Shown here: positions 21,460 through 58,500 of the stretch, piece by piece
Position numbering within the stretch: the stretch's first letter is position 1
Layout of the letters: every line of letters starts with the position of its first letter
Origin: Silvibacterium dinghuense
GTDB taxonomy: Bacteria > Acidobacteriota > Terriglobia > Terriglobales > Acidobacteriaceae
NCBI RefSeq assembly: GCF_004123295.1
Contig: NZ_SDMK01000001.1
Coordinates: 992,001 to 1,056,000, forward strand
DNA: 64,000 nt
Reading direction: 5' to 3'
The notes under the pieces: generated by a model
The model's database searches: none
Told to the model about the DNA's origin: nothing
The model's input: the letters and a program-made list of their open reading frames with translations, nothing else
Translations under genes and position numbers: made by a program

Positions 21460-22410
21460 TTATTTTCTCACAATGGAAGTAAGCCACTCGGCGGCAGCGG
21501 GCTCATCGGTGAGGGTGACTTCGAGCCGCGGCACCTCGAGCGGCAGCTGGGCGCGGATACGCGCGCAGAACGCATCCCCGAGACGCACGGCATCCTTTTC
21601 CGTAGTCACGCAGAAATCGGCCCCTTTGCTCGCGGCAAGGCGTAGAAGCTGGTCGAGGTCGGACTCCGCATAGGGATGGTGATCGGCAAAGGCGCGCGTG
21701 GCGGCGAGTTCTACTCCCTTCCGTTCGAGACCGGCAAAGAACTCCTCTGGCCGGGCAATCCCGCAAAAGGCAAGAGCCCGGCCAGCGGGCAGCGCCGAGA
21801 GATGGCGCCGCTGAATCCAGACAGGGCAGGTCACGCCGAGGTTACGAATCTGCTCCTCGCGGGCAACATCCTCCTGGCGCAGAACAACGACCGAGGCGCG
21901 ACGCAACGCGGAGAGCGGCTCACGCAAACGGCCGGCAGGCAGCAGACGGTTGGCGAAATCCGTGGCATGCACCAGCACGATGTCTGCGTCACGCGCCAGT
22001 TGGCGGTGCTGGAAACCGTCATCGAGCAGATGAATGGCCGGAGCCGTACTTTCCGCCAGAAGACCAGCCTGGTAGCGATCCGCGCCCACATAGACAGGAA
22101 TCCCGGCGCGGGCTAAGAGCAGCGGCTCATCGCCGAAGTCCCGGGCCGAGCCGCCCGGATCGACACGGAGAACGCCCTTCGTCGCACGCCCGTAACCGCG
22201 GGAGAGAACATCCACCGGGTGGCCCATCCGCTTCACCAGGCCGGCGAGGTAGTGCACAAACGGCGTCTTGCCCGAGCCGCCAGTCGAAAGATTGCCGACG
22301 CTCAGCACCGGCTGCTCGAGATGATGCGCCTGTCGCCAGCCCCGGTCATAGGCCAGGTTCTTCGCCGCCACGGCTGCGGCGTAAAGCGGAGTCAGGGGAG
22401 CGAGAATCAT
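21460..22410 (-). CDS. lpxK: Tetraacyldisaccharide 4'-kinase
   Basis: 316 aa. It phosphorylates the lipid A precursor at the 4' position on the inner face of the inner membrane. A Walker A loop is seen in 'SVGNLSTGGSGKTPFVHYL', followed by 'VLSRGYGR', 'GDEPLLLA' and 'LLDDGFQHRQLARDADIVL'. Length is normal. The start overlaps the waaA stop by four bases (ATGA). Confidence 0.95.
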   Translation of the reverse strand: MILAPLTPLYAAAVAAKNLAYDRGWRQAHHLEQPVLSVGNLSTGGSGKTPFVHYLAGLVKRMGHPVDVLSRGYGRATKGVLRVDPGGSARDFGDEPLLLARAGIPVYVGADRYQAGLLAESTAPAIHLLDDGFQHRQLARDADIVLVHATDFANRLLPAGRLREPLSALRRASVVVLRQEDVAREEQIRNLGVTCPVWIQRRHLSALPAGRALAFCGIARPEEFFAGLERKGVELAATRAFADHHPYAESDLDQLLRLAASKGADFCVTTEKDAVRLGDAFCARIRAQLPLEVPRLEVTLTDEPAAAEWLTSIVRK

Positions 22411-23681
22411 GCCGCATCTCCGGCACGTTCTCCCAGAAGCGCCAGCAAGCGCGCCAGTGTGCGGTCGGTGCCGCCAGCCTCGGCATCGAAGATTGCGCGG
22501 GCACGTTCGCCCATGGCGGCAGCCTCGTCGGGATAGCTGAGAAGCTCAGCCAGCATGGCCTTCAGTGTGGAGGCCGGTGCAACGCGGATGGCGTCGAGCG
22601 AGCGAAGCAGCTCGACTATGGCGCGGAAATTTTCATAATGCGGTCCCATCACGATCGGCACTGCAAACTGCGCCGGCTCCAGCGGATTGTGTCCCCCGGC
22701 CTGCACCAGGCTGCCGCCGACAAAGGCAATGGTCGCCAGCGAATAGACCGAGGCCAGCTCCCCGATGGAGTCGAGCAGAAACACGCTTCCCGGTTTCAGC
22801 GGACTGGGCGCGGTCACCCACTCCGAGCGGCGAATCCAGCGGGCATCGCGGCGGCGCAGCAGCTGTGCGACGGTGGCGAAGCGCTCGGGATGGCGGGGCG
22901 CGAGAATCACGATCGCCTCAGGAGGCACAGCATTGAGCAACAGCTCTTCTTCCCCCTCGAGCGTGGAACCGCAGACCACGACGAGCTGGCCGGACGTGAG
23001 TACGCGGCGCAGCGCGGTGGTAACACTGGCCTCCTGCCTCACCCGAATATCGAACTTGAGATTGCCCGCAACTTCGACATGCCCGGCACCGATCGCCATC
23101 AGGCGCTCGGCATCCTGCTCACTCTGCGCGAGCGTCAACGCAAAGGGCGCAAGCAGCGGCCGCCACAGCCAGCGCAGCCGCTGGTAGCGCGGCCAGGAGC
23201 GGTCCGAAATGCGAGCATTCACGACGGCGATGGGCACGTGCATCCTGCCGCACTCGTGGAGCATGCGCGGCCAGAACTCCGACTCCAGCAGAACAATCAG
23301 CCGGGGACGAAGAAATCGCAGCCAGGCGCGAACGGCAAACGCAAAATCAAGCGGGAAATAGAAAACGCTGTCGGCCCCGAACTTCTCACGGGCAAGCTTC
23401 TGGCCGGTGCGCGTGGTGGTGGAGACGACGATGCGATAACCGGGCAGGCTTGAGCGCAGGCGAAGGATCAGACTGCCGGCAGCCAGCGTCTCGCCCACGG
23501 AGACGGCATGCAGCCAGACCACCGGCTGCCCCGGAGCGGGAGCGCGCAGACGCTTCGGAATCCGTCCGAGCCGCTCGCCGAGCCCCTCACGGTATTTACC
23601 GCTGGTGGCCATGCGGAGGAGCCAGAAGGGCGCGCTCAACAGCAGAACGATTGTCAGCGCCACGCTGTACAGCAGAAACAT
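22407..23681 (-). CDS. waaA: 3-deoxy-D-manno-octulosonic acid transferase
   Basis: 424 aa GT30 enzyme that transfers Kdo to lipid A. An N-terminal membrane anchor ('LTIVLLLSAPFWLL') precedes 'VVWLHAVSVGETLAAG', 'LLESEFWPRMLHECGR', 'VNARISDRSW' and a C-terminal 'FVGGSLVQAGGHNPLEPAQF'. It is the first gene of the five-gene reverse operon and is divergent from the exported-protein gene at 23832. Confidence 0.95.
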   Translation of the reverse strand: MFLLYSVALTIVLLLSAPFWLLRMATSGKYREGLGERLGRIPKRLRAPAPGQPVVWLHAVSVGETLAAGSLILRLRSSLPGYRIVVSTTTRTGQKLAREKFGADSVFYFPLDFAFAVRAWLRFLRPRLIVLLESEFWPRMLHECGRMHVPIAVVNARISDRSWPRYQRLRWLWRPLLAPFALTLAQSEQDAERLMAIGAGHVEVAGNLKFDIRVRQEASVTTALRRVLTSGQLVVVCGSTLEGEEELLLNAVPPEAIVILAPRHPERFATVAQLLRRRDARWIRRSEWVTAPSPLKPGSVFLLDSIGELASVYSLATIAFVGGSLVQAGGHNPLEPAQFAVPIVMGPHYENFRAIVELLRSLDAIRVAPASTLKAMLAELLSYPDEAAAMGERARAIFDAEAGGTDRTLARLLALLGERAGDAA

Positions 23682-23831
23682 CCGCTCACCAACTCCACTT
23701 CGACAGGGTCTACCTACTGGTCCACTCTACCTGTTTTCCGCAACTTCGCACCCGGCGCGTGCGACTCTTGCACTGCCGGTTGCGTCTGCTTTACGGGGTC
23801 TCCAGCGAAGATGATAATCGTGCCCAAAGCC

Positions 23832-24488
23832 ATGCGCCCGCGCTCTTTCTCTCTTTCTCTTCTCGCACTGTTTTTCACCGCACCGCTCATGCAGGCGCAG
23901 CATGCGCTTCCACCCGCGCAGGACGCGACGAAATACGCGGCCTACGACGCACATGCCGACGAACAGGTGGTCATCGCCGCTGAGCCCTTCCAGACAAAAG
24001 ATCAAATGAAGTACTTCCGGGTGGACTACCTGAAGAATGACTTCCTGCCCATCCGCATCATCGTCACCAACAACGGCGACAAGCCCATCTCACTGGCGCA
24101 GGCGCGCATCGACTTCATCAGCGCGAACAACGACCGCGTACCCGCCGCCGAGCCCGAAGACGTGGAGCGGCGCATGACCCACGTGAGCAACACCGGCCAC
24201 AAGGTGCCCATGCCCGCGCCGCTGCCCCCGATGGGCGGCAAGCCGAAAACGCCGGACGCGAAAATTGAAAAAGACTTCAACGAGCTGGAGTACCAGGACG
24301 TCACCGTGCCGCCGCACAGCACAAAATCTGGCTTCCTCTTCTACGACATGGAAGGATTAGGCGGAAATCCGCTGCGCGACGCGAAACTCACCTTCCGCCG
24401 CGTACAAAGCGCCGACGGCCGCGACTTCTTTCCCTACGACATCCCGTTTAACAAGTTTCTCGATGTGCAGAAGGGCGCTACGCAGTAG
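23832..24488 (+). CDS. Exported protein of unknown function
   Basis: 218 aa from ATG 23832; ATG 23811 is an alternative that adds seven residues. A signal peptide (SLSLLALFFTAPLMQAQ) is followed by a single immunoglobulin-like or beta-rich domain: 'YFRVDYLKNDFLPIRIIVTN' with 'DKPISLAQARIDFISANN' early and 'VTVPPHSTKSGFLFYDMEGL' late. A Pro-rich loop sits between. The pattern resembles exported proteins seen in acidobacteria with no assigned role. No operon partner. Repeats follow it. Confidence 0.75.
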   Translation: MRPRSFSLSLLALFFTAPLMQAQHALPPAQDATKYAAYDAHADEQVVIAAEPFQTKDQMKYFRVDYLKNDFLPIRIIVTNNGDKPISLAQARIDFISANNDRVPAAEPEDVERRMTHVSNTGHKVPMPAPLPPMGGKPKTPDAKIEKDFNELEYQDVTVPPHSTKSGFLFYDMEGLGGNPLRDAKLTFRRVQSADGRDFFPYDIPFNKFLDVQKGATQ

Positions 24489-24538
24489 CGGAACTGCTGA
24501 AAGTTACCGCTCCTCGCTGGGCCTTCATAATGAATGAC

Positions 24539-24737
24539 TGTCATCTCGACCGAAGTGAGACGTCCTTCTCGTCGCGCGCAGTGGAGAGACCTGCGGTTTC
24601 TCCGCCTGGTCGCAAGAAGAACTACCTAGAGCCGGTCCCTCCCACCCAAGCGAAGCTTGGATGGGGCACCCTTTTTCTTGCCAGTATGCGCAAACCGCAG
24701 GTCCCTCCACTTCGCTACGCTCCGATCAGGATGACAA
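24539..24737. repeat. Composite repeat: inverted A modules around a C hairpin
   Basis: A forward A module starts at about 24539 (TGTCATCTCGACCGAAG, ending GTGGAGAGACCTGCGGTTT near 24599). An inverted A copy is at 24692-24736 (AAACCGCAGGTCCCTCCAC ... GATGACAA). Between them at 24640-24670 is a C-type hairpin with core CCAAGC-GAA-GCTTGG ending TGGGGCACC. Confidence 0.8.
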
Positions 24738-24760
24738 GTAACTAGAGAGAAGAAATGCCG

Positions 24761-24791
24761 GGTGCCCCACGTCTCGATTCTGAGACGTGGG
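24761..24791. repeat. B hairpin module
   Basis: GGTGC followed by a perfect 10-bp stem CCCACGTCTC/GAGACGTGGG (24766-24775 with 24782-24791) and a 6-base loop. It lies 19 bases beyond the GH92 stop and may double as its terminator. Confidence 0.8.
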
Positions 24792-24810
24792 ATTCCTCCA
24801 ACTTAGACAC

Positions 24811-27075
24811 TTACGAGAACCGCAGCTTCCCACCCGCGATCAGCTCGAAGTGATCCACCGTCGCATCGCTGAGCGGCTTGCCGTTCAGCGTGGTCTTGTG
24901 CGCCTCCGGCGCGGCAGACTCCACCACCAGCGTCTTACCTTCCGGCAGGTGCACTGTGGCCTTTGCGAACAGCGGGCTGCCCAGCTTGTACTCCGGCTTG
25001 CCCGGGCACAGCGTGACGATACCGAGCGCGGCCATCACATACCATGCAGCCATGGAGCCGGTGTCCTCATCGCCCGAGAAGCCGCTCGGCGAGTAGCACT
25101 CGTTCATCACGCGATGCGACCAGTGCGCGAGACGATCCTGGCGGCCGGCATCGGCATAGACACCGAGCACGTGGTGTACGGGCTGATTGTTGTGCGCCAG
25201 CTGTCCCAGGTTGAGCGCCGCCATCTCCGACATCTCGTGAATCTCATAGCCGTAGACGCCGGTGTTAAAGGTCGGCGGCAGGGTCATCATCGTCTCGAGC
25301 AGCTCGACCGCCTTCTCCTTGCCGCCCAATGCTTCGATGAGCGCAGGCATGTTGTGCGGCACATCCCAGCGATGCTGCCAGGGACCGCCTTCGACGTAAG
25401 GATCGCCCCAGGTGAACTCGTCGAAGGGCTCGAGCCAGCTGCCGTCCGACTTCTTGCCACGGAGAAAGCCTGTCTGCGCGTCGAAGATGTGCCGCCAGTT
25501 CTCCGAGCGCTTCAGGAACATCTCGTAGTCCTCGGTCTTGCCGACGGCCTTGGCCACCTGCGCGATACAGTAATCGCCGTAGGCAGCGTCGGTGGTTTCA
25601 GCGGCGGACTGGCCGACCTTATCGGCAGGATCGTATCCGTACTGCAGGTAAGACTCGATGCCGCTGCGGCCATAGCCCTTGTCCGGATTGCCCGGCTGCG
25701 TCGCATGCTTCTTCAGCCCGGCGTAAGCCGTCTCCAGATCGAAGCCCTTGATCTTCTTCACCGCCGCCTCGCCGAAGAGCGAGTCGATCAGGCTGCCGGT
25801 CATGCAGGCGCGATAGCCGGGACACGGAAACTGCGGCAGCCATCCGCCTTCCTGGTACACATTCACCCACGCCTGCAGAATCTCGCCCAGCCGCTCGGGG
25901 AAAAGAATCGTCATCATCGGATACCAGGCGCGATAAACATCCCAGTAGCCGTGATCGGCGTACATCAGGCCCGGAACGACTTTGCCGTTATATACGCTGC
26001 GGTGCTGCATCTTGCCGCCGGCATCCGGCTCATGCCAGATGCGCGGAAACAGCAGCGTGCGATAGAGGCACGAGTAGAAGGTCTGCTGCTGTTCGTGCGT
26101 CGCGCCTTCAATCTCGATGCGCTTCAGGTAGCCGTTCCATACCTCTTCGGACTCCTTGCGCAGTGCATCCGGCGTCTTGTCGCCGAGCTCGAGCTGGATG
26201 TTGCGCTCCGCCTGCTCGAAGGAAATGAACGACGTACCGATACGCACCTCGATCGCCTCCACGTCGTCAGCGAAGAGAACCTTGCCGGTGTGATGGTCTT
26301 GCTCGTCCTTCTCGTCCGCGTTGGCCCAGGGCGCAGAGAACTTCAGCACGTAGTACGTCGCGAAACCTTCCTGCACGCCGCCGGAGTTCGCCGTCGAGGT
26401 GAAAGAAATGGTCTTCGTCTCCTTGCCAAGCTTCACCGTGGGCGCGGGAGCATCCTTCTGCGTGGGGATATCGAAGATAAAGCCGCGTGTCTGCTTCTTC
26501 TCGTACTTCGCGGTGATGATGGCGCAGCGCTCGGTCGGCAGCAGCTCGGTGTCGATGGAATAGCGCATCAGGCGCAGGCCCATCGTATGCGGCGAGAGCT
26601 TCGCATCCTCCAGGCGATACGAACTGGAGCGGCCACCGGGATCGGCGCTGACCTCTCCAGAGAAAGGCAGAAAGACCGCATGGCCGTAATCGCCAAGCCA
26701 CGGGCTGAGCTGATGCGTACAGCGGAAACCGGTCAGGCGGCGGTCCGCAGGCGCGAACATCCATGTGCCGCGCGGATTGGACTCGAGCGTCCAGTGGCCC
26801 ATGCCGAAAGGGCGCGTCGCGATGGGCAGCGTGTTGCCGCGCGAAAATGCAGGCGTCGAGTCGGTGCCCTGCAGAATGTTCACCAGCGTGACCGGGCTGG
26901 CAAGAGAACCGGCTCGTCCGGAGGGAGCAATGCTATCGTCCTGCCCCTCACCCAAGCCTTCCGCACGGGCTGCAGTAGGCGCAGCAGCCGGAACGGCAAC
27001 CGTGGCGGCAAGAGCCAGCGAAGAGGATTTAAGAAAGTTACGGCGCGACGAGGTGAACGAGGACAGGGACTTCAT
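24811..27075 (-). CDS. GH92-family alpha-mannosidase, Tat-exported
   Basis: 754 aa from ATG 27075, preceded by CGGAGGA. A twin-arginine signal ('SSRRNFLKSSSLALAATVA') indicates export folded. The N-terminal beta domain has 'FGMGHWTLESNPRGTWMFA' and 'LTGFRCTHQLSPWLGDYGH'. The catalytic (alpha/alpha)6 domain has 'MYADHGYWDVYRAWYPMM' and 'GFSGDEDTGSMAAWYVMAA', the GH92 acidic signature. The family uses calcium and inverts alpha-1,2/1,3-mannosides such as N-glycan chains. No linked transporter. The open frame up to 27375 is not used. Confidence 0.92.
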   Translation of the reverse strand: MKSLSSFTSSRRNFLKSSSLALAATVAVPAAAPTAARAEGLGEGQDDSIAPSGRAGSLASPVTLVNILQGTDSTPAFSRGNTLPIATRPFGMGHWTLESNPRGTWMFAPADRRLTGFRCTHQLSPWLGDYGHAVFLPFSGEVSADPGGRSSSYRLEDAKLSPHTMGLRLMRYSIDTELLPTERCAIITAKYEKKQTRGFIFDIPTQKDAPAPTVKLGKETKTISFTSTANSGGVQEGFATYYVLKFSAPWANADEKDEQDHHTGKVLFADDVEAIEVRIGTSFISFEQAERNIQLELGDKTPDALRKESEEVWNGYLKRIEIEGATHEQQQTFYSCLYRTLLFPRIWHEPDAGGKMQHRSVYNGKVVPGLMYADHGYWDVYRAWYPMMTILFPERLGEILQAWVNVYQEGGWLPQFPCPGYRACMTGSLIDSLFGEAAVKKIKGFDLETAYAGLKKHATQPGNPDKGYGRSGIESYLQYGYDPADKVGQSAAETTDAAYGDYCIAQVAKAVGKTEDYEMFLKRSENWRHIFDAQTGFLRGKKSDGSWLEPFDEFTWGDPYVEGGPWQHRWDVPHNMPALIEALGGKEKAVELLETMMTLPPTFNTGVYGYEIHEMSEMAALNLGQLAHNNQPVHHVLGVYADAGRQDRLAHWSHRVMNECYSPSGFSGDEDTGSMAAWYVMAALGIVTLCPGKPEYKLGSPLFAKATVHLPEGKTLVVESAAPEAHKTTLNGKPLSDATVDHFELIAGGKLRFS

Positions 27076-27230
27076 AGGCAGACAGATTCCTCCGGTACAG
27101 TCTTTCCCCGGCGGCGGCGGCAGCGTGCCGCGCCAGGCGATACAGCAAGGCAGGAGCTCAACGATAGAAGAACTCCGGACATGGTAACGATACCATAATG
27201 TCCCAAACCAGCCCGCAATCCGGGTCCCTC

Positions 27231-27327
27231 GCATCTCGTTCTGTTCGAGATGGGGGTTCACAGCATGAACGCATCGTGAAGGGTTCGCTTCTCCCACCCA
27301 AGCCAGCTTCAGGCTCGAATGGGGCCA
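27231..27327. repeat. Degenerate B and C hairpin modules upstream of GH92
   Basis: CATCTCG...CGAGATG forms a B-like hairpin at 27232-27252, and CCCACCCAAGCC...GGCTCGAATGGGGCC forms a C-like hairpin at 27293-27326. They fill the spacer between the GH92 start and the D modules. No gene was seen between 27076 and 27441. Confidence 0.6.
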
Positions 27328-27345
27328 CCGGACGAATCCCGGATC

Positions 27346-27442
27346 GCGACCAGCGGGAGCGGAAGACGAAGGCAAGTCGCCCTGCGCGAAGCAGCCGAAG
27401 GCGAAAGGCCTGGACGGCCAGTCCCGCCCTGCGCGAAGCAGC
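27346..27442 (+). repeat. Two D modules abutting the queE stop
   Basis: The first copy begins GCGACCAGCGGGAGCGGAAG at 27346 and ends CCTGCGCGAAGCAGC. The second, partial copy ends with the same CCTGCGCGAAGCAGC at 27442, whose last base is also the first base of the complemented TAG stop of queE. Read in the queE direction, the stop is followed at once by CTGCTTCGCGCAGGGCG. Confidence 0.8.
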
Positions 27443-28122
27443 TAAACCCCTTTTTTCTGTGGCTCCCAGATGTACTTGTGAATCTGCAGGCTCAGCCGCG
27501 CGTCGAGACCATCCTCGAGCATCCAGTGGACCAGCTCACGCGGATCGAGCACAGCGTTGGCCGTCGACCGCTCGGGCAAAGGCGTCTTCGAGAACGCAGG
27601 CGAGAGCAGCAGCTGTCCCACGCGTCCCTCGAGCGAATTGGTCCGGATGAAGTCGCGTGCATACTCGTAGTCCGCGCGGTCGCTGATGACGAACTTCAGC
27701 TCATCGCGCATGGTGAGCGAGGCAAGATTCGGCCGGTGAAAGCGATTCGCTTCGCCGGAGCCGGGGCACTTCACATCGACGATCTTATGCACGGCCTCGG
27801 GCACGTTCACCACCGGGCGCTCACCGCTGGTCTCGATCATCAGCTCGTAGCCCGCGGCCAGCAGCCGCTGCATCAGCGGCACCACCTCGCGCTCCTGCAG
27901 CAACGGCTCGCCACCGGTGAACTCGACCAGCTTCACGGGCGCAAGCTTTTCGATCTCGGCCATCACCTCGTCCTGGGTCAGCTTGTAGCCGCCGGTAAAG
28001 GTGTACTCCGAGTCGCACCACGAGCAGCGCAGGTTGCAGCCGGCCAGGCGCACGAAGATGCACGGCACGCCGGCGAAGCTCGACTCACCCTGCACGGACT
28101 TGTAGATCTCTATCAGGTACAA
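27442..28122 (-). CDS. queE: 7-carboxy-7-deazaguanine synthase
   Basis: 226 aa radical-SAM enzyme that contracts 6-carboxytetrahydropterin to CDG in queuosine precursor synthesis. The cluster motif CxxxCxxC is in 'AGCNLRCSWCDSEYTF', the substrate loop is 'TGGEPLLQ', and an N-terminal 'IYKSVQGESSFAGVPCIFVRL' is typical. It starts four bases after queD, so the two form an operon with queD first. queC is 12.7 kb away on the other strand. Confidence 0.95.
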   Translation of the reverse strand: MYLIEIYKSVQGESSFAGVPCIFVRLAGCNLRCSWCDSEYTFTGGYKLTQDEVMAEIEKLAPVKLVEFTGGEPLLQEREVVPLMQRLLAAGYELMIETSGERPVVNVPEAVHKIVDVKCPGSGEANRFHRPNLASLTMRDELKFVISDRADYEYARDFIRTNSLEGRVGQLLLSPAFSKTPLPERSTANAVLDPRELVHWMLEDGLDARLSLQIHKYIWEPQKKGV

Positions 28123-28126
28123 GGGT

Positions 28127-28504
28127 TTACTCGTAATATGTCGCGGTCGTGGTGTCGGTCTCGTAGATGGTGCAGTCCTTCACTGTGACGCGGCCCTTGG
28201 TCAGCTCGTGGAGCTGCGACTTCGTCTCGTCATAGAAATACTTGGCGAGATTCTCGGCCGAGGGATTGATCTCGGTGAAAGGCTCGAGATCGTTCAGCAT
28301 CTGGTGGTCCAGGCGATCGATGACCGGGCGCATAACGTGCTTGAGGTCCTTGAAGTCCAGCAGCAGGCCGGAGACGTCCAGCGTCTCGCCGCGCAGGGTG
28401 ATCTGGACCTTGTAATTGTGTCCGTGCGGGTTCTCGCACTTGCCGCGATAGTTCCTGAGGTAGTGGCCCGAGGAAAACTCGCGCTCAACTCTGACTTCGT
28501 ACAT
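28127..28504 (-). CDS. queD: 6-carboxytetrahydropterin synthase
   Basis: 125 aa. It converts dihydroneopterin triphosphate to 6-carboxytetrahydropterin. Zinc ligands H14, H27 and H29 and catalytic C23 are in 'FSSGHYLRNYRGKCENPHGH'. 'EINPSAENLAKYF' and 'TVKDCTIYETDT' are also family signatures. The upstream spacer carries part of an E element that contains a -10-like TACAAT on this strand. Confidence 0.95.
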   Translation of the reverse strand: MYEVRVEREFSSGHYLRNYRGKCENPHGHNYKVQITLRGETLDVSGLLLDFKDLKHVMRPVIDRLDHQMLNDLEPFTEINPSAENLAKYFYDETKSQLHELTKGRVTVKDCTIYETDTTTATYYE

Positions 28505-28520
28505 TGTTTCTCTTGGCTCT

Positions 28521-28620
28521 CTGGGGCAAATCGGCCCTTTTTCTATTGTAGCCGGTTAGGCCGGGAGTGGTATGGGAGGCCATTTTGCCCATTCGCGCGA
28601 AGATCGTGAACAGGCCCTTA
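28521..28620 (-). repeat. Partial E-type element upstream of queD
   Basis: Read on the reverse strand it begins TAAGGGCCTGTTCACGATCT, like the terminus of the 291-bp element (TAAGAGCCTGTTATGAACTT), then GCGCG and later GGGCCGATTTGCCCC, which echoes that element's inner GGGCCGATTTTCCCC. The other terminus is missing. TACAAT (28550-28545, reverse) may serve as the queD -10. Confidence 0.55.
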
Positions 28621-28719
28621 GCACTGGTTTACGCATGCAAGTGATAGAGGTATGCTTCCCTGACCGGTAAGCCAGCGGGCTCAACACTACACTGCCACCC
28701 CAAAACCAGGAGGAGACCT

Positions 28720-29604
28720 ATGCCAACTGTAGTTTGGGCCATGATCGTCGCAGGGCTATCCGCATGGATCGTCGGACTGCTCCTCGTCCGCCCGCGTCTC
28801 TACAAGGCTTCGGGCGCGGATCGCGTCCTGCTCCTTGGCCCTGTCTTCGAAGCCGTCGCTCTGGCCATGTTCGCAGCGGAACATTTTTTCGCAGCGCGCG
28901 ATCTCATGGGCATTGTCCCGCACTGGCTGCCCGCGCCGCTCTTCTGGACTTACTTTGTCGGCATAGCGCTGCTGGCCGCGGCCATCAGCTTCGTGGCGTG
29001 GCGGCAGGTGCACCTCTCTGCACCGCTGCTCGCACTGCTGTTCCTCCTCATCGTCATTACCATCGATCTGCCGAACCTGCCACAGCACATCCCACTCCAT
29101 CTCCGGGATCGCCTCTTCTGGACGCTAACCGTCCGCGAAACCGCCTTTGCCTGTGGAGCGCTGGTGCTGGCGGGCAGCGTTCTGCCGCGCGAAAGCAGGG
29201 CAGGCATTGCGCTCGTCCGCACAGGCCGCGCAATCATTGCCGCGATCTGCATCTTTTATGCAGTTCAGCACTTTCTTTTTCCGCAGTTCGTCCCCGGCGT
29301 TCCGCTCGAAAAGCTGACACCGTCATGGGTGCCCTGGCCGCATGTGCTCGCGTGCCTGATCGGGGCTTCGCTGCTCTTTTGCGGAGTGGGATTGCTTATC
29401 CCGCGTGCTGTGCGTATCGCCGCAGCCTCAACAGGTGCCGTGCTCGTGCTGCTCACCCTGTTCTTTTATGTCCCCATCTTCGTGACAGAGATGCACACGC
29501 CGCTGGCGCTCGAAGGGATGAATTACGTCGGAGACACTCTGCTGTTCGCGGCGACGGTCTTACTCGCGGGTCTTGGCACAGAGAACCCCGCATCGTCGAC
29601 CTAG
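28720..29604 (+). CDS. Polytopic membrane protein of unknown function
   Basis: 294 aa with about nine predicted membrane helices and short loops. AGGAGGAGACCT precedes ATG 28720. Visible features are 'LRDRLFWTLTVRETAFACG', 'FYAVQHFLFPQFVPGVPLE' and a terminal helix. The pattern resembles DoxX-like or related four-helix duplications, but no family can be named with confidence. Its last four bases overlap the last four bases of the convergent small gene. Confidence 0.8.
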   Translation: MPTVVWAMIVAGLSAWIVGLLLVRPRLYKASGADRVLLLGPVFEAVALAMFAAEHFFAARDLMGIVPHWLPAPLFWTYFVGIALLAAAISFVAWRQVHLSAPLLALLFLLIVITIDLPNLPQHIPLHLRDRLFWTLTVRETAFACGALVLAGSVLPRESRAGIALVRTGRAIIAAICIFYAVQHFLFPQFVPGVPLEKLTPSWVPWPHVLACLIGASLLFCGVGLLIPRAVRIAAASTGAVLVLLTLFFYVPIFVTEMHTPLALEGMNYVGDTLLFAATVLLAGLGTENPASST

Positions 29605-29852
29605 CGCCGCTTCGCCCGCTCCCGTCGCCGCTGCTCCTCATTGCGGCGCTCCACCTGCTCAAACATCGCCGTCATCATGCCGCAGAGCGCAGTGATGAGA
29701 CTGCCTACCAGCAGGAACAGCGCAATCGTCTTCCAGAGCGAGCCATTACCCGCAAGGCCGGGCTGGTCGGAATTGCCCATCCATACCATGCCGCAGGAGA
29801 TGAGCGAGAAGAGCAGGAGTGTAGCAGCGAGAATGTAGAGATTGCGAGCCAT
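29601..29852 (-). CDS. Small two-helix membrane protein
   Basis: 83 aa. Helix 1 is 'LYILAATLLLFSLISCGMVW', helix 2 is 'IALFLLVGSLITALCGMMTAMF', and the C-terminus is a strongly basic, charged tail (QVERRNEEQRRRERAKRR). Function unknown. It is convergent and overlapping with the 294-aa membrane-protein gene. Confidence 0.65.
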   Translation of the reverse strand: MARNLYILAATLLLFSLISCGMVWMGNSDQPGLAGNGSLWKTIALFLLVGSLITALCGMMTAMFEQVERRNEEQRRRERAKRR

Positions 29853-29897
29853 GGCGAGCGAAAGTCCGTCCCGCCGATCTTACTCCCAGAAACGATC

Positions 29898-30173
29898 TGT
29901 CATCCCGACCGAAGCGAAGCGCAGTGGAGGGACCTGCGGTTCGCTCGCAGTGGAACGAACAGGGTGCCCCACGTCTCGCCTCTGAGACGTGGGAATGCAC
30001 AGAGCCATGCTCAGCGTTCATCGTAGCGGCAACGAAAACGGGTGCCCCATCCAGGCTCAGCCTGTGTGGGGAGGTACGAAACTTGGGACGATTGTCCTCT
30101 GGATGAGCACGAAACCGCAGGTCTCTCCACTGCGCGAGACGATACAACCGTCTCGCTTCGGTCGAGATGACAA
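29898..30173. repeat. Composite repeat: inverted A modules around B and C hairpins
   Basis: Forward A at 29898-29941 (TGTCATCCCGACCGAAGCGA ... GGAGGGACCTGCGGTT). B hairpin at 29962-29993 with 10-bp stem CCCACGTCTC/GAGACGTGGG. C hairpin at 30040-30071 with core CCAGGC/GCCTG. Inverted A at 30112-30173. It fills the whole spacer between the small membrane gene and tag. No gene inside. Confidence 0.8.
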
Positions 30174-30186
30174 ATCTTTATTACGA

Positions 30187-30795
30187 CTAGGACTTCTTAC
30201 CGTGAGCCTTGCGCACCTTCGCCACCTGTGCGCGGATCACGCAATCCTCCACGTGGTCATTGATGAGCCCCATGGCCTGCATGAGCGCAAACATCGTCGT
30301 CGGACCGACAAACTTCCATCCCAGCTTCTTAAGGTCTTTGGACAAGGCAATCGACTCGGCCGAAGTGGTCAGCGTCTGCGGCTTCGCGAGATTTGCAGCC
30401 TTCGGCTCGTAGCGCCAGAAGAACGCGGCCAGCGAGCCCTCACGCTCGACCATCTCCCGCGCGCATTTCGCATTGTGAATCGCCGCCTCGATCTTGCCAC
30501 GATGCCGGATGATGCCTTCGTCCTTCAGCAGCCGCTCGACATCTTTCTGCGTAAAGCGCGCAACCCTGTGAAAGTCGAAGCCGTGAAACGCCTTGCGAAA
30601 ATTCTCGCGCTTGTTCAGGATCGTGCGCCAGCTCAATCCGGACTGGAAGCCCTCGAGCACCAGCTTCTCGAACAGCCGCACATCCTCATGGACAGGAAAG
30701 CCCCACTCTGTGTCGTGATAGCTGAGGAACTCGGGAGCGGTTGCGCACCAGGCACAGCGCAGCTTCCCATCCAACCCTGCAACAGCCTTCGACAT
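30187..30795 (-). CDS. tag: DNA-3-methyladenine glycosylase I
   Basis: 202 aa from ATG 30795, with TAGGAGA just upstream. It removes 3-methyladenine from alkylated DNA. The zinc-binding 'RCAWCATAPEF' and 'SYHDTEWGFPVHEDVRLFE' at the N-terminus and 'AMGLINDHVEDCVIR' at the C-terminus are Tag signatures. 'GLSWRTILNKRENFRKAF' is also typical. It begins eight bases after the dinG stop and is probably co-transcribed with it. Confidence 0.95.
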   Translation of the reverse strand: MSKAVAGLDGKLRCAWCATAPEFLSYHDTEWGFPVHEDVRLFEKLVLEGFQSGLSWRTILNKRENFRKAFHGFDFHRVARFTQKDVERLLKDEGIIRHRGKIEAAIHNAKCAREMVEREGSLAAFFWRYEPKAANLAKPQTLTTSAESIALSKDLKKLGWKFVGPTTMFALMQAMGLINDHVEDCVIRAQVAKVRKAHGKKS

Positions 30796-30803
30796 GCGAT
30801 CTC

Positions 30804-32789
30804 CTACTCTTCCTTTGCGAAGAAATCCTCTACATCCGACCATTCATGCGTGATGCGATACGGCGGCAAACTATCGATGAACACCTTGCCGTAGCGCTGG
30901 CGCTGCAATCGAGGGTCGAGCAGCATGAGCACGCCGCGATCCTCGAGCGAGCGGATCAAACGCCCAAAGCCCTGCTTGAGCGTAATCACAGCCGATGGAA
31001 TCTGGTACTCGAAGAACGGGCTTCCGCCGCGGTCTTCGACCGCACGCATGCGCGCCTGGACGACCGGATCGCTCGGCACGGCAAAGGGCAGCCGATCGAT
31101 GATGACACAGCTCAGAGCCTCTCCCTGCACGTCCACGCCCTGCCAGAAGCTCGAGGTGCCGAAGAGCACGGCATTCGGTGTGTTACGAAACTCCTCGAGC
31201 AGCGCCTTGCGCGGCGCGGTGCCCTGCAGCAGCAGCGGATAACCCACCTGCGGCAGCAGCCGCTCGTACAGGTCGCGCATCTGCGAGTAACTGGTGAAGA
31301 GGCAGAAAGCGCGGCCCTGCGTGATCTCCAGCATGCGCCGGATATGCCGCGCCGCCTCTTCCTGAAAATTCGCATCGCGCGGATCGGGCATACGCGGCGG
31401 CAGAAACAGCACCGCCTGCTCGGAATATTTGTAGTGCGAGGGCACCACCATCTCGCGCGCGTCGCGCAGGCCCAGCCGCTTCTCCATGTGCTCGAAGCCT
31501 CCCGCAACCGTCAGCGTGGCCGAGGTGAGCACCACGGTAGGAAAGTTCTCGAAGAGCAGCTGGTTCAGGATGCCCGAAACATCGATCGGCGTGGCCTGGA
31601 TGTGCGTCGAGAGCGAAGCCGCGTGCGCCCCGCCGCGTCCGCGCCGCTCGAGCCAGAAGACCGTATTCTTGTCCTCCGACTCGAAGAGATACTTCAACTG
31701 TTCACGAATATCCGCCGTGCGCCGCTTCAAGGGCTGCGCCTCTTCCGCGCCGCGCACGCGTTCCAGTTCCCCTTCCAGCCGGTGCAGCGAGTTGAGTACT
31801 CCGAGATAGAGATCGCCATGCTCCTCGAGGAAGCCTTCGCGATTGCTGAACTGCATGCGACCTTCATGCCCTGCGCCGCGAGGCAGTGTCGAAAAGAAGA
31901 GCCGTGCGCGCTCGCGCAGCGTCTGCGCTGCGCTGGTGATGCCGGCCGAGAGTGCATCCTTGGCGCGCAGCAGCGACTCGAGATCGCGAACCAGTTCTTC
32001 AAATCGAATATTGCTGAGATTGATGCCGAAGTAGCCCGAGGCCACATCTTCCAACTCGTGCGCCTCGTCGAAGATGACGATGCCCGCATCCGGCAGCACA
32101 CCCGCATCCGGCGCGGCCTTGGCCTGCTGGCGAATGGCGAGATCGGCAAAGAAGAGGTGGTGGTTGACGATCACTATGTCGCTCTCCGCCGCCTTGCGCC
32201 GCATCTCGGTGACAAAGCAGCGCTGATAATCCGCGCAGCTCTGGCCCAGGCAGGCATCTCCGCGCGCGTCGAGCTTCGGCCACAGCAGGCTGGTCTCTGG
32301 CAGCCCATCGATCTCGGCGCGATCGCCGGTTTCGGTCGTCTTCTCCCACTCCGCGATGGCCTGGTACTGCGCGATCTCTTCCAGTCCCGAGAGAATCGGC
32401 TGGCTGCGCAGCGCGAAGAGTTTGTGACGGCAGAGATAGTTGGCGCGGCCCTTCATGTAGCAGGTCTGCAGCGGTCCCAGCAGCGACTCGAGGAAGGGAA
32501 TGTCCTTAAAGAAGAGCTGCTCCTGCAGGTTCTTCGTGCCGGTCGAGATCACCACACGCCGCCCGGAACGCAGCGCAGGCAGCAGATAGGCGAGCGTCTT
32601 ACCAGTGCCCGTGCCGGCCTCGACGATCAGGTGTCGGCTCTCCTCGATCGCGCGCTCGACGGCCTGCGCCATCTCCAGCTGGCCCTTGCGGAACTCATAC
32701 GGCAGCGGCGAACGCGAGAGCACACCGCCCGGCGCGAAAAAGTCATAGAGCGACGGCAGCGAGTGTGTGGACTGGAGAGACGAAGGCAC
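30804..32789 (-). CDS. dinG: ATP-dependent DNA helicase, DinG/YoaA (XPD-like) family
   Basis: 661 aa, start GTG 32789. Superfamily 2 helicase: Walker A 'EAGTGTGKT' (58-65), DEAH box at 241-244 and helicase motif VI 'KQGFGRLIRSLEDRG'. Four Cys (C120, C180, C185, C191) give the 4Fe-4S cluster of XPD-like enzymes. Likely 5'-3' unwinding in damage response. It heads a two-gene repair operon with tag. YoaA rather than DinG cannot be excluded. Confidence 0.92.
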   Translation of the reverse strand: MPSSLQSTHSLPSLYDFFAPGGVLSRSPLPYEFRKGQLEMAQAVERAIEESRHLIVEAGTGTGKTLAYLLPALRSGRRVVISTGTKNLQEQLFFKDIPFLESLLGPLQTCYMKGRANYLCRHKLFALRSQPILSGLEEIAQYQAIAEWEKTTETGDRAEIDGLPETSLLWPKLDARGDACLGQSCADYQRCFVTEMRRKAAESDIVIVNHHLFFADLAIRQQAKAAPDAGVLPDAGIVIFDEAHELEDVASGYFGINLSNIRFEELVRDLESLLRAKDALSAGITSAAQTLRERARLFFSTLPRGAGHEGRMQFSNREGFLEEHGDLYLGVLNSLHRLEGELERVRGAEEAQPLKRRTADIREQLKYLFESEDKNTVFWLERRGRGGAHAASLSTHIQATPIDVSGILNQLLFENFPTVVLTSATLTVAGGFEHMEKRLGLRDAREMVVPSHYKYSEQAVLFLPPRMPDPRDANFQEEAARHIRRMLEITQGRAFCLFTSYSQMRDLYERLLPQVGYPLLLQGTAPRKALLEEFRNTPNAVLFGTSSFWQGVDVQGEALSCVIIDRLPFAVPSDPVVQARMRAVEDRGGSPFFEYQIPSAVITLKQGFGRLIRSLEDRGVLMLLDPRLQRQRYGKVFIDSLPPYRITHEWSDVEDFFAKEE

Positions 32790-32798
32790 GGTCTTTAC

Positions 32799-32804
32799 AG
32801 AATA
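32799..32804 (-). promoter_or_regulatory. Putative -10 box for leaderless dinG
   Basis: On the reverse strand TATTCT lies nine bases before GTG 32789, with no Shine-Dalgarno between. Confidence 0.35.
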
Positions 32805-32825
32805 TCCGGCTCTACATATCCAGCT

Positions 32826-33043
32826 CTACCGAATCTCGGGGCCCTGCTTCCTCGACTGTGGATTACGGCGGGATTTCATCAGCAGAACATAGGGCATCGC
32901 AACGATCCACATGAGGAAGCCGAGGCCCAATAGCCGGCAAAGCTTCTTCCCTTCGCCCTAGCTACGAATCCAGGGACTAGAGCCATCACTGCAGAAGTGA
33001 AAAGCATTTGCGCGACTTGATGCCAATCATCATCGGCCTGCAT
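32826..33043 (-). pseudogene. Frameshifted small membrane protein
   Basis: From ATG 33043 (CAGGAG seven bases upstream) the frame reads 'MQADDDWHQVAQMLFTSAV', a hydrophobic stretch, 'ARAKGRSFAGYW', and then degenerates and stops at 32879. In the next frame the sequence continues as 'GFLMWIVAMPYVLLMKSRR' and ends at TAG 32828. The RKGRSF...W...GLLLWIVALP arrangement is common in short bacterial membrane proteins. Five bases separate TGG and the GGC of GFLM where six would keep the frame, so one base seems lost near 32922-32926. The spacer 33044-33430 upstream shows no convincing gene. Confidence 0.6.
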
Positions 33044-40692: not shown

Positions 40693-40726
40693 GGGTGCCC
40701 CACGTCTCGATTTTGAGACGTGGGGT
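40693..40726. repeat. B hairpin module
   Basis: AGGGTGC is followed by an 11-bp perfect stem CCCCACGTCTC/GAGACGTGGGG (40698-40708 with 40715-40725) and a 6-base loop. It lies between opposed D modules. Confidence 0.8.
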
Positions 40727-55489: not shown

Positions 55490-55520
55490 TCAAGCATGAA
55501 GTCGGCTTGAGTGGGGTCGG

Positions 55521-55557
55521 GTGCCCCACCCATGACCCTCGGTTGGTCATGGGTGGG
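55521..55557. repeat. B/C-type hairpin spanning the lhr stop codon
   Basis: GTGC is followed by a 13-bp perfect stem CCCACCCATGACC/GGTCATGGGTGGG (55525-55537 with 55545-55557) and a 7-base loop. The right arm contains the lhr stop (55549-55547) and its last codons, which encode THP. Confidence 0.8.
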
Positions 55558-58500
55558 TCTCAAGAAAACCCAGGGCAGGAGAGGAAAACAGGCTCACCGT
55601 CGTCGGCGCATCTGTCTCTTCTTTCTCTTCCGCAAACGGCCATGTCACCGTCCGGCCCGGAATCGCGGCCGGACGCTCGCCCGGAATCACAATATCGATC
55701 AGGTTCATCGGATCTGCCGCAGCGTAAGTGATCGCTGCCTGAGCCTGCGGCCTGCGCCGCACCTCGCGCAGCATCTCCAGCGCCTCGGGCAGCGCGAACT
55801 GCTCTCCGCCAAAGCCGGAGACAAAGCGCCCGCCGCGCACGGTCCCGCGTGCTTCCATCCTGCGATACATGCCGACCAGGTCACGCCAGCGCGGCATCGA
55901 CGTTTCCCGTGTCAGCAGATCGCGGAAGATCACACCGTAACGCCGCAGCAGCGTCATGCAGGCAGACTCCAGCTCGCTCTCCCACCGCTTGGCAGCTTCG
56001 CCAAGACTTTCGTCGACGAGCGGAGCCTGCGCCAGCATGCTCCAGCGCCCCGCGGCCTTGCGATTCTGCGCCGCAGGCCGCACCCGCGCAGGTGCGGTAA
56101 AAATTTGCTTCCGCCGAGGGTCCACAAGCTGGCGCAGGCTGTCGAACCCATCGGCCGTCACCAGCCCCGCAGCAACCAGTTCCCACAGCGCCAGCGCCGT
56201 CTCCTCACCCGGAGCGCCAGAGAGCCGCGCCAGCTCTGCAGGAAACATCGCTCCGCGCTCCGCGAGGCAGGAGCGCAGCCGGTTCGCCAGAGAACTCAGG
56301 CATGCCTCCAGATTCGCCCCGGGAATTTGTCGCTGTTGCAGGCACAAATCCATCCACAGCGCCTCTTCGCGCAGAAAAAAGGTGATCGGCGCCATGCCCG
56401 TAGGCACGATACGCCGCGGCCCTCCACCTTCGACCGTTGCAAATGCCGGATGCGGCGAGATGCGCCCCCATCCGACCACGCCGGTAAGCGTCAGAGCATC
56501 GAGCCAGCGCGGATCGTAATTCGCTACGCGCTGCGGCAAGATCGACCGCTCCCACTCGACGGCTGGCGCCTCGAATCCCTCGAGCCCGCGAATCGCCTCC
56601 AGCAACCCCTGCTCGCCCGAGAGCTGTCGCTGCGGCCCAAGATGCTGCCAGTCCAGAGCAAAGCGCATGTACACCGCCGGCGTCACCGGCTCGACCTGCT
56701 TGCGCAAGGCATGCAGGGTTCGCTTGTGAATCCGCTGCAACAGCCGCCGCTCGCACCACTCGACGTCTTCCTCCGCGATCGGCTCAGCAGAAGGCGGATG
56801 ATCGAAGCACCCGCGCAGCATCGTGCCCGACGCCTCGAGCAGCAGCATCTGCTTCCAGATCTCGGATGCCGCAACGCCCAGCCGCTCGCCGAGCGAGCGC
56901 GAGGTCACCGGCCCAAGAATCGCCATCCATCCCTGCATCGCCTTGCGCAGAACCTCGTCGGCGCCGGCAATGTTCGCCGGCAGCGCAATGAATTGCTTAT
57001 CATATGCAGCATCCGGCCATAGCAGCTTCAGCTCAGCCAGCCGCTCGGCGGCGGCAATATACCTGCGCCCACCCGCGAACAAAAACCCGGCGCGGCGACT
57101 GCGCTCCAGCGACGCGAAGAACGGCCCCCAATGCTGCGTGCGCGGATCGTCCATCATCGCCTGCGGCACTATCACCAGTGAACACAGCAGGTCATGCAGC
57201 TCGTGTTCGTCGCGCGGATCGGGCCATACCTGCGCGCGCACCTCCTCGATCGCCGCCGGCGAAAGCCGTCCCGCCTCGCCCAGCGCCTGGTCGGGCAGCA
57301 GGCCGCGCATGGCCACGGCGCGCGCGCGCCGCTCCTCGAGCCCCGCCTCATCGAGAAAGGCATTGGGATGCGCGTTGACCAGCTCATGCGCGAAGACCGA
57401 AGGCGTCGTCGTGTCGATGGCCACGCAACGGATCGCGCCCGAGTCCATCGCGGCGAGAATCTTCGTCAGCCCCTCCAGGTCCATCGCCTCCTGCAGCACA
57501 TCCCGCATGACTTCTCGAACGAGCGGATGATCCGGGATCTGGATATCGCCCTCGATGTTCTCAAAGCACGCCGCAGCCTGCGGAAAAACACTGGCCAGCA
57601 GATCGTCGGAGCGCGTGCGCATGATCTGCGGAGGAACTTTCTTGCCCTTCTGGAAGCGCAGCAGCTGCAGGCTCCGGCACGCATCCCAGCGCCAGCGCGA
57701 CTTGAAGATTGGTGAAGCCAGCGAGGCCTGCTCGAGCAGTTCCTTCACCGTCAGCGTGGTCAGGAACTGGAAGACATCGCTCAGCGGAAAGCTGTGCTGC
57801 TCGGCCAGCGAGATGTTGAGCCCGTTGTCCGTAGCCGCGGCCTGCAGCTCAAAATTGAACCCGCGGCAGAAACGCTTGCGCAGCGCCAATCCCCACGCCT
57901 TGTTGATGCGGCCGCCGAAGGGCGCATGCAAGATGAGCTGCATGCCGCCGCCCTCATCGAAGAACCGTTCTGCAACAACCGTGGTTACAGATGGAATGGT
58001 GCCCAGCACCGCGCGCCCGGCAGCCACATAACCGATCATCTGCTCGGCAGCCGAATCGTTCACCGCGCAGGCATCCTTCAACCACGCCGCCGTTGCCGCC
58101 ACTTCCTCATGCGACTGGCTGATGAACCCCGGCTCGACTGTAGGCGTGCGCTCAGCGATCTCGCAGCGCAGCGCGGAGACAAACTGCGACAGCTCCCAGG
58201 TTCGCAACGGCGCTTCGCCCGTCCAGAAAGGCAGGCTCGGCGGCTGCCCATGCGCATCTTCCACATGCACATGCCCGCTCGACTCGATGCGCTGAATGCG
58301 CCAGCTCGTATTGCCCAGCAGGATCACATCGCCCGGCGACGAATCCACCGCGAAGTGCTCGTCGAGCGTGGCAATCTGCACGCCCTCCGGCTGCATGATG
58401 ACATGAAACAGCGGCAGATCCGGAATCGTACCGCCATTCGTGACAGCAGTGATGCGCGCCCCGCGCCGCGCCTGAATCTGCCCATGTACGCGATCACGAA

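Follow-up and report, generated by a model that had tools for sequence, protein, structure and literature searches.

Composite intergenic elements of Silvibacterium dinghuense join REPIN-like doublets to a second REP family, and similar repeats frame genes of a GIY-YIG nuclease subfamily

Two composite elements at the locus

The window, a stretch of 64,000 nucleotides of the genome of the soil bacterium Silvibacterium dinghuense, contains two elements composed of hairpin-forming modules, which lie beside a GH92 gene and a tag gene, respectively (Table 1). Element 1 (24539-24736), located between the 3' ends of two convergent ORFs, comprises a 60-nt A module on the plus strand, a C hairpin on the minus strand and a 44-nt A module on the minus strand, with an extra plus-strand B hairpin just outside. 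Element 2 (29898-30172) comprises a 44-nt A module, a B hairpin and a C hairpin, all on the plus strand, followed by a 60-nt A module on the minus strand. The sequence-only reading had described both spacers as an A module, one or two hairpins and an inverted A copy, with a hairpin content that differs (C in one, B then C in the other). The module coordinates confirm both descriptions, the C hairpin of element 1 being on the minus strand. Both elements follow a common plan, namely a 44-nt A module, about 20 nt, a BC hairpin, more sequence, and an inverted 60-nt A module.

Table 1 Modules and neighbouring features in the window (positions of the whole stretch)
Feature	Position	Strand	Remark
A module, long 60-nt subtype	24539..24598	+	Element 1, outer arm; tag TGTC, stem TCTC/GAGA, variable inner hairpin
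BC hairpin, C subtype (GGGTGCCCCATCCAAGC...)	24640..24671	-	Element 1; 21 nt behind the minus-strand A tail
A module, 44-nt subtype	24693..24736	-	Element 1, inverted arm
BC hairpin, B subtype	24760..24792	+	23 nt outside element 1
GH92 gene	24811-27198
Third repeat (GCGACCAGCGGGAGCGG...GGCCTGGACGGCCAGTCC)	~27340-27430
A module, 44-nt subtype	29898..29941	+	Element 2, left arm
BC hairpin, B subtype	29962..29994	+	Element 2; 20 nt behind the A tail
BC hairpin, C subtype	30040..30071	+	Element 2
A module, long 60-nt subtype	30113..30172	-	Element 2, inverted right arm
tag gene	30187-30843
Solo BC hairpin, B subtype	40693..40725	+
Solo BC hairpin, third subtype (CCATGAC...)	55519..55558	+	Kind that frames a RAYT gene in the congener G001 (L075)

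The folds of the two spacers are far more stable than those of shuffled sequences, with z values of -7.5 and -11.1. No match to the Rfam covariance models was found in window positions 22000-33000 at E up to 1. The third repeat listed in Table 1 is also present behind several A/BC composites and in the relative L169.

A and BC as genome-wide repeat families

The genome of S. dinghuense comprises 5.1 Mb in 9 contigs (G006 is a congener), and modules were sampled in 1.52 Mb of it, taken as stretches. The A module exhibits the head GTCATYYCGACCGRAG and the tail GGAGRRACCTGCRGTT, with a variable inner hairpin between them. Its head pattern, with at most one mismatch, occurs 164 times in the genome and the reversed pattern once, while a fuller model identified 162 A modules in the 1.52 Mb and none in the reversed sequence. 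The BC pattern occurs 154 times in the genome, the control pattern not at all, and 250 BC hairpins were found in the 1.52 Mb against 6 in the reversed sequence. The A and BC patterns are not chance occurrences.

The B and C hairpins are two subtypes of one family, which have the head GGGTGCCCCA and the foot TGGG in common and are distinguished by their inner stem, so that BC combines an invariant GGGTGCCCCA head with a variable palindrome. Further inner-stem subtypes are present in relatives, and at least one BC match was found in 29 of the 41 genomes. In the A module, the two variable stem bases covary: they are complementary in 122 of the 143 modules that could be scored (19 of the 162 were unscorable), compared with a mean of 49.6 and a maximum of 70 in shuffles. 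The stem types are CC/GG (62), TC/GA (30), TT/AA (26) and CT/AG (4). The tag is TGTC in 151 of the 162 modules, CGTC in 2, and another sequence in 9. Some A forms are longer, with a big inner hairpin (CGAACCGGGGTCCCCGGCGCGCC...) and heads stacked at intervals of about 31-33 bp (G000:C1:1064893, 1075248, 1808580 and others). A text search of the literature with the repeat motifs themselves returned matches that are unrelated by title.

Pairing, orientation and spacing of the modules

Neighbouring A modules are predominantly inverted with their heads outwards at short range, namely in 24 of 26 pairs within 60 bp and in 34 of 41 within 300 bp. At greater distances there is no enrichment, the proportion obtained by subtraction being 6/11 between 300 and 1,000 bp and 1/40 between 1 and 5 kb. 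A total of 32 heads-out doublets with at most 120 bp between the modules, the arrangement that characterizes REPINs, were found in the 1.52 Mb. These doublets account for 64 of the 162 A modules. The sequence-only reading had set mostly single and randomly oriented modules against its own proposal: the A modules are indeed mostly single, since 98 lie outside such doublets, but their short-range orientation is not random. Its view of a modular non-autonomous repeat family is supported.

The spacer of the A doublets is 15-19 nt long in 19 of the 32 cases and 34-95 nt in 11, and the arms overlap, according to the model, in the remaining 2. The two arms are almost never alike: none of the 32 doublets has arms of equal length (7.5 expected) and only two have the same stem type (10.4 expected). 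Exactly one arm of 57-61 nt is present in 27 of the doublets, two in one and none in four, whereas 13 of the 98 A modules outside doublets are of this length. BC hairpins form heads-out doublets of their own (32 of 48 neighbours within 60 bp), and only 1 of 32 BC doublets has arms of equal length (9.0 expected); by inner stem letters, the heterodimer test was not significant for these BC doublets (5 observed, 6.4 expected). BC is a GGGTG-tagged REP family. Some of the counted doublets are copies of larger repeats (those at 1880895 and 1904221 share their flanks), so these counts include non-independent events, and p values that assume independence are too small because repeat copies are related. 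Copy number, orientation, spacing, covariation and a heterodimer rule are all directly observed features of these repeats. Heterodimeric arms would hinder the formation of one long perfect hairpin, which could allow each REP to fold alone.

The position of BC relative to A is also constrained. Within 150 bp of an A module, BC hairpins lie on the tail side on the same strand in 37 cases and on the opposite strand in 8, and on the head side in 14 and 6. Among the 37 tail-side, same-strand hairpins, 24 are located 18-24 nt from A, compared with 1.7 expected under a uniform distribution, and the A module is other than the 57-61-nt kind in 23 of these 24. This arrangement, which includes both window elements, concerns a minority of BC hairpins (24/250).

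Each window element combines a REPIN-like A doublet with members of a second REP family. The earlier comparison with BIME/REP mosaics is apt; the suggestion that the hairpins are exchangeable cargo was not supported, B and C being members of a family with its own partner gene. Regarding classical MITE features, the arms are inverted yet belong to different subtypes, and no clear target duplication was apparent by eye in the flanks inspected.

Long-range pairs of A modules were considered as the ends of a transposon with gene cargo, which was rejected in the absence of heads-out enrichment beyond 1 kb; for the same reason, the gene-cargo claim is limited to the GIY-YIG cases described below. 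A methyltransferase-like gene (putative prmC) between two A modules was taken as a coincidence. A gene encoding a secreted-looking protein of 195 aa lies between two heads-out A modules at L024 (G000:C1:2103978-2104722), and a homologue of this protein was found only in G001 among the 31 genomes searched.

GIY-YIG genes between A modules in Acidobacteria

A listing of the ORFs located between an A module on the plus strand and one on the minus strand yielded two small GIY-YIG ORFs. With the PF01541 profile, four matches were obtained in the S. dinghuense genome, namely UvrC and three standalone genes. Each of the three standalone genes is enclosed by a pair of inverted A modules, the two modules being 363-376 bp from each other. 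Of the other called genes, 2/1,085 are framed in this way within 150 bp and 4/1,085 within 250 bp (Fisher p 1.6e-7 for 3/3 against 4/1,085). None of the three nuclease genes shows the long arm of 57-61 nt that 28 of the 32 doublets contain.

The same association is observed in relatives. At 37 standalone GIY-YIG loci of the 41 genomes, outward A-type heads are present within 300 bp on both sides in 18 cases, on one side in 11 and on neither in 8. As controls, UvrC genes exhibited such heads on both sides in 0/13 cases and on one side in 4, and random points exhibited them on both sides in 3/379. The repeats that frame the genes vary from species to species. The REP type found at the nuclease of G001 (up to three mismatches) occurs 31 times in G001, three times in the 40 other genomes and not at all in S. 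dinghuense. The type of G019 (up to one mismatch) occurs six times in G019 and three times in G014, and five of the six G019 copies are near the two GIY-YIG matches of that genome on C17.

An alignment of the REP-framed proteins showed that the GIY-YIG residues are kept and that the motifs REK..K.W.R and NP.W.DL are shared. We drew 90 genomes across the phylum, which yielded 28 new loci when only best-scoring matches were taken; two UvrC-like loci were set aside. REP framing was found at 6 of the remaining 26 loci, comprising 6/6 motif-positive and 0/20 motif-negative ones. The motif itself came from the earlier alignment, while its expression and the inverted-repeat cut-off of 14.5 were written after the scores were known, and two motif-negative loci (L366 and L377) would count as framed at a cut-off of 14.0. 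By the head criterion alone, the result for the same loci is 4/6 against 0/20. Over all acidobacterial loci, including those from which the motif was derived, 26/30 motif-positive and 1/33 motif-negative loci are REP-framed (p 2e-12). Motif-positive genes without a REP frame amount to 4/30 in Acidobacteria and 2/15 in the plasmid collection described below. The four motif-negative proteins that were inspected are of another kind, the GKGAKYT type. The A repeat is thus linked with a subfamily of GIY-YIG nucleases.

CGTC REPs and homologous GIY-YIG genes in other bacteria

GTAG REPs have RAYT. The text of the 2013 survey of Di Nocera et al. (PMC3733652) reports no dedicated transposase for the CGTC REPs, among which it counts the Neisseria dRS3 repeat; its authors suggested loss of the enzyme or borrowed transposases. 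A tblastn search with the S. dinghuense nuclease matched 39 records of a plasmid collection, from which 16 loci were chosen by hand to spread over genera. Inverted CGTC REPs frame the gene in 9/16, namely in Novosphingobium, Rhizobium, Shinella, Azospirillum, Neisseria, two Sphingobium, Aeromonas and Neorhizobium. A TGTC form frames the GIY-YIG gene at the Spirosoma locus (1/16), other or partial inverted repeats occur at 3/16 (Planktothrix, S. meliloti and Sinorhizobium C101), and no framing repeats were found at L336, L342 and L346 (3/16). The CGTC tag, the AT stem start and the CCA tail occur together in five of the nine, namely Rhizobium, Shinella, Azospirillum, Neorhizobium and Aeromonas. 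The Neisseria repeat has CGTC and AT but the tail CTA, the stem of the Novosphingobium repeat starts with GC, and in the two Sphingobium repeats it starts with AC and the tail is CCC. The Neisseria gonorrhoeae (L340, 2.2 Mb) and Aeromonas caviae (L344, 4.9 Mb) records are filed as plasmids and are chromosome-like by length. At L334, on plasmid p1 of Planktothrix agardhii, the GIY-YIG gene lies between an MmeI-type restriction gene and the DISARM gene drmA.

At 300 random points of the S. dinghuense genome, the inverted-repeat score has a median of 9.7, a 95% value of 12.5, a 99% value of 25.9 and a maximum of 48.4; this null is not clean, because the genome is full of such pairs. In a 50-kb region of A. 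lipoferum, the nuclease gene has the highest score for flanking inverted repeats among 43 genes (42.9, the next being 17.0), and the three CGTC matches of this stretch are all located at it. Within 50 kb of Novosphingobium pNL2, the nuclease gene also ranks first of 43 (31.0, the next being 14.0); the same CGTC pattern has no match in this stretch, where the repeat starts with CGTCGC. The framing REPINs also occur elsewhere, at 22 places in 8 Azospirillum records and, for the Shinella REPIN, at 161 places in 64 records.

Filled and empty sites were found between relatives. In A. lipoferum, the nuclease gene lies between sufB and sufC with a CGTC doublet on either side, while in A. ramasamyi, A. 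oryzae and B510 (94-95% identical) both the repeats and the gene are absent from this place. At the Sphingobium fnrL site, three strains are filled, one of them with a frameshifted nuclease, TomTYG74 and TomTYG64 carry a solo REP palindrome, and TomTYG72 has none. Shinella H4-D48 (84% identical) is without the gene or its framing REPs, and its local sequence also differs. Framing of homologous GIY-YIG genes by CGTC REPs is an observed feature of these other bacteria, as is the occurrence of filled and empty sites among relatives.

On the basis of these sequence comparisons, we propose that GIY-YIG nucleases are partners of CGTC/TGTC-type REPs, although the gene could also be a passenger at the REPs. 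It is rather unlikely that the gene is a homing-type parasite which cuts or targets REPs and inserts itself between them, A spreading by other means. Free-standing GIY-YIG homing nucleases are known, and such a parasite would fit the two Sphingobium strains with a solo palindrome where others have REP, nuclease and REP, as well as the frameshifted copy. In contrast, the three Azospirillum empty sites lack both REP and nuclease, so the two may have been gained together there. Moreover, the REP type around the nuclease of G001, like that around the nuclease of G019, is mostly restricted to the genome concerned, which suggests a lasting pairing of REP and nuclease.

Genomic placement and orthologous sites

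According to crude gene calls, 82 of the 206 intergenic module clusters are located at convergent gene ends, compared with 213 convergent spaces among 949; 48 further clusters fell inside the gene calls. The nearest relatives compared are distant: among the other genomes, the protein identity of the best flanking-gene matches is 56% and 51%, and that of queE orthologues does not exceed 85%. At the first site, which was compared in six relatives, L168, L170 and L172 are without an A-type repeat, L169 and L171 carry other A-type repeats, and L167 carries a degenerate one. At the second site, L168, L170 and L171 continue without the element, and the context of L169 is different. L167, taken as S. 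bohemicum, carries a different heads-out A-type pair (9108-9243, heads at 9108 and 9185), which adjoins the counterpart of window position 29853 and is embedded in 1.7 kb of other sequence. Several relatives lack the GH92 and tag genes that adjoin the elements at the corresponding places. Gene gain and repeats coincide in position, and gain of the element and gain of the gene are inseparable at these sites, since the genes are also missing where the blocks join directly.

These data bear on the possibility that the elements are retained because they serve at the RNA or chromosome level, as bidirectional terminators, 3' mRNA stabilisers or supercoiling sites, in which case their number would reflect selection and not mobility. 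The very stable folds and the preference for convergent gene ends are consistent with such a role. However, selection alone would not be expected to yield families confined to species, orthologous sites that differ or a nuclease gene framed by the repeats, and a role acquired after insertion is compatible with mobility, which makes this explanation improbable.

Y1/RAYT genes and the BC family

Y1/RAYT genes (PF01797) are present in 32 of the 41 genomes, and 25 distinct genes, a part of the PF01797 matches, were examined. The sequence-only reading had pointed to a transposase of this type, which holds for BC in congeners and fails for A. BC heads with at most one mismatch frame 5/25 Y1 genes on both sides (L071, L075, L076, L077 and L081), and exact heads frame three of these five; a Y1 gene at G013:C168 is also framed by BC according to its coordinates. 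In contrast, A-type heads frame 0/25 on both sides and flank two on one side, within 400 bp and with a broad A pattern, since a narrower one would miss the forms of some species. BC is thus linked with RAYT in congeners.

The single Y1 gene found in S. dinghuense (L073, G000:C1:2072700-2079000) encodes a REP-associated tyrosine transposase (NF047646 match). It is framed by a different palindrome, GGCACGGCTTCAGCCGTGCC, from another REP family, and A was therefore rejected as its terminal repeat. No BC-framed RAYT was found in this genome, so that its 154 BC copies are without a resident partner gene among those found. Although RAYT genes are present and BC heads frame 5/25 Y1 genes, a single RAYT/Y1 enzyme moving both A and BC, as initially expected, is very improbable given the lack of two-sided A framing and the other palindrome at the resident gene.

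Comparison with known systems

As with the CGTC REPs in the text of the survey (PMC3733652), A follows a plan of tag, covarying stem and CC tail, forms inverted dimers, commonly heterodimers, and lies mostly behind genes; the repeats at the proteobacterial GIY-YIG genes match the CGTC REPs literally in five genera. A differs in its predominant TGTC tag, its longer body and its variable inner hairpin, and it occurs in Acidobacteria, outside the five phyla listed for the CGTC REPs in that text. As its tag is one base off, we regard A as similar to the CGTC superfamily and not as a member of it. The A tail, CCTGCRGTT, does not fit the CCA tail of the superfamily. The AT/AT stem start is complementary in the A forms of several relatives, while the S. 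dinghuense form has an A facing a C.

BC resembles the TIRtrons/TIRYT of Acidobacteria (PMC3733652, section 16) in that hairpins frame RAYT genes in relatives; the GGGTG head and the set of subtypes are not described in the text compared. The A+BC composites are similar to those of Pseudomonas in the same section, in which a degenerate GTAG unit is joined to an unrelated stem-loop, as both are genome-repeated combinations of a REP and an unrelated hairpin. They differ in the families involved, and the spacing of about 20 nt is the one measured here.

The heads-out intergenic hairpin doublets of A, with many copies per rare partner gene framed by the same repeat, are also reminiscent of REPINs/BIMEs with RAYT (TnpA-REP). 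Unlike RAYT-linked REPINs, the partner of A is a GIY-YIG nuclease, and the GIY-YIG fold is unrelated to HUH/Y1. The window elements further differ from REPINs/BIMEs in joining two REP families at a preferred spacing. The REP-linked nucleases share the catalytic domain PF01541 with homing GIY-YIG endonucleases and UPF0213/YhbQ proteins, and the only solved chain matched is 1zg2 (UPF0213 BH0048, E 0.0084). They differ from these proteins in their C-terminal half, which carries REK..K.W.R and NP.W.DL.

Proposed explanation and significance

The window elements are best stated as A doublets resembling GIY-YIG-linked REPINs together with members of a RAYT-linked REP family. The best explanation, to which we give a probability of roughly 0.6, is that of two independent REP families, with a GIY-YIG nuclease that recognises and cuts the A-type REP and allows its spread in trans. 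The GIY-YIG protein would recognise the (C/T)GTC foot of the REP hairpin and nick or cut at this point, which would let the REP doublet be copied into new intergenic sites. A nuclease gene located between two REPs may be copied likewise, rarely, and non-autonomous doublets such as those of the window would spread in trans. BC could be added by its own RAYT-type enzyme, or A and BC could travel together, fused into one unit.

For the CGTC REPs, whose partner is missing, the GIY-YIG subfamily is a good candidate. Whether it is the enzyme of CGTC/TGTC-type REPs across bacteria, unrelated to the RAYT fold and acting by an undescribed doublet-moving mechanism, we consider an evenly balanced question; the support is strong in Acidobacteria and Proteobacteria, with single weaker cases in Bacteroidota and Cyanobacteria. 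A link between GIY-YIG and REPs was stated in no title or abstract start among the matches listed, and it may be in print in subscription papers, which were outside the scope of the search.

REPs belong to the repeats that are common in bacterial genomes. The heterodimer rule observed in both families bears on the puzzle, raised in the text of PMC3733652, of why heterodimers prevail. If the proposed explanation is true, the question can be tested with one purified protein and one oligonucleotide, and the annotation of many genes described as 'GIY-YIG nuclease family protein' would change. There would then be two unrelated natural solutions for maintaining populations of intergenic hairpins.
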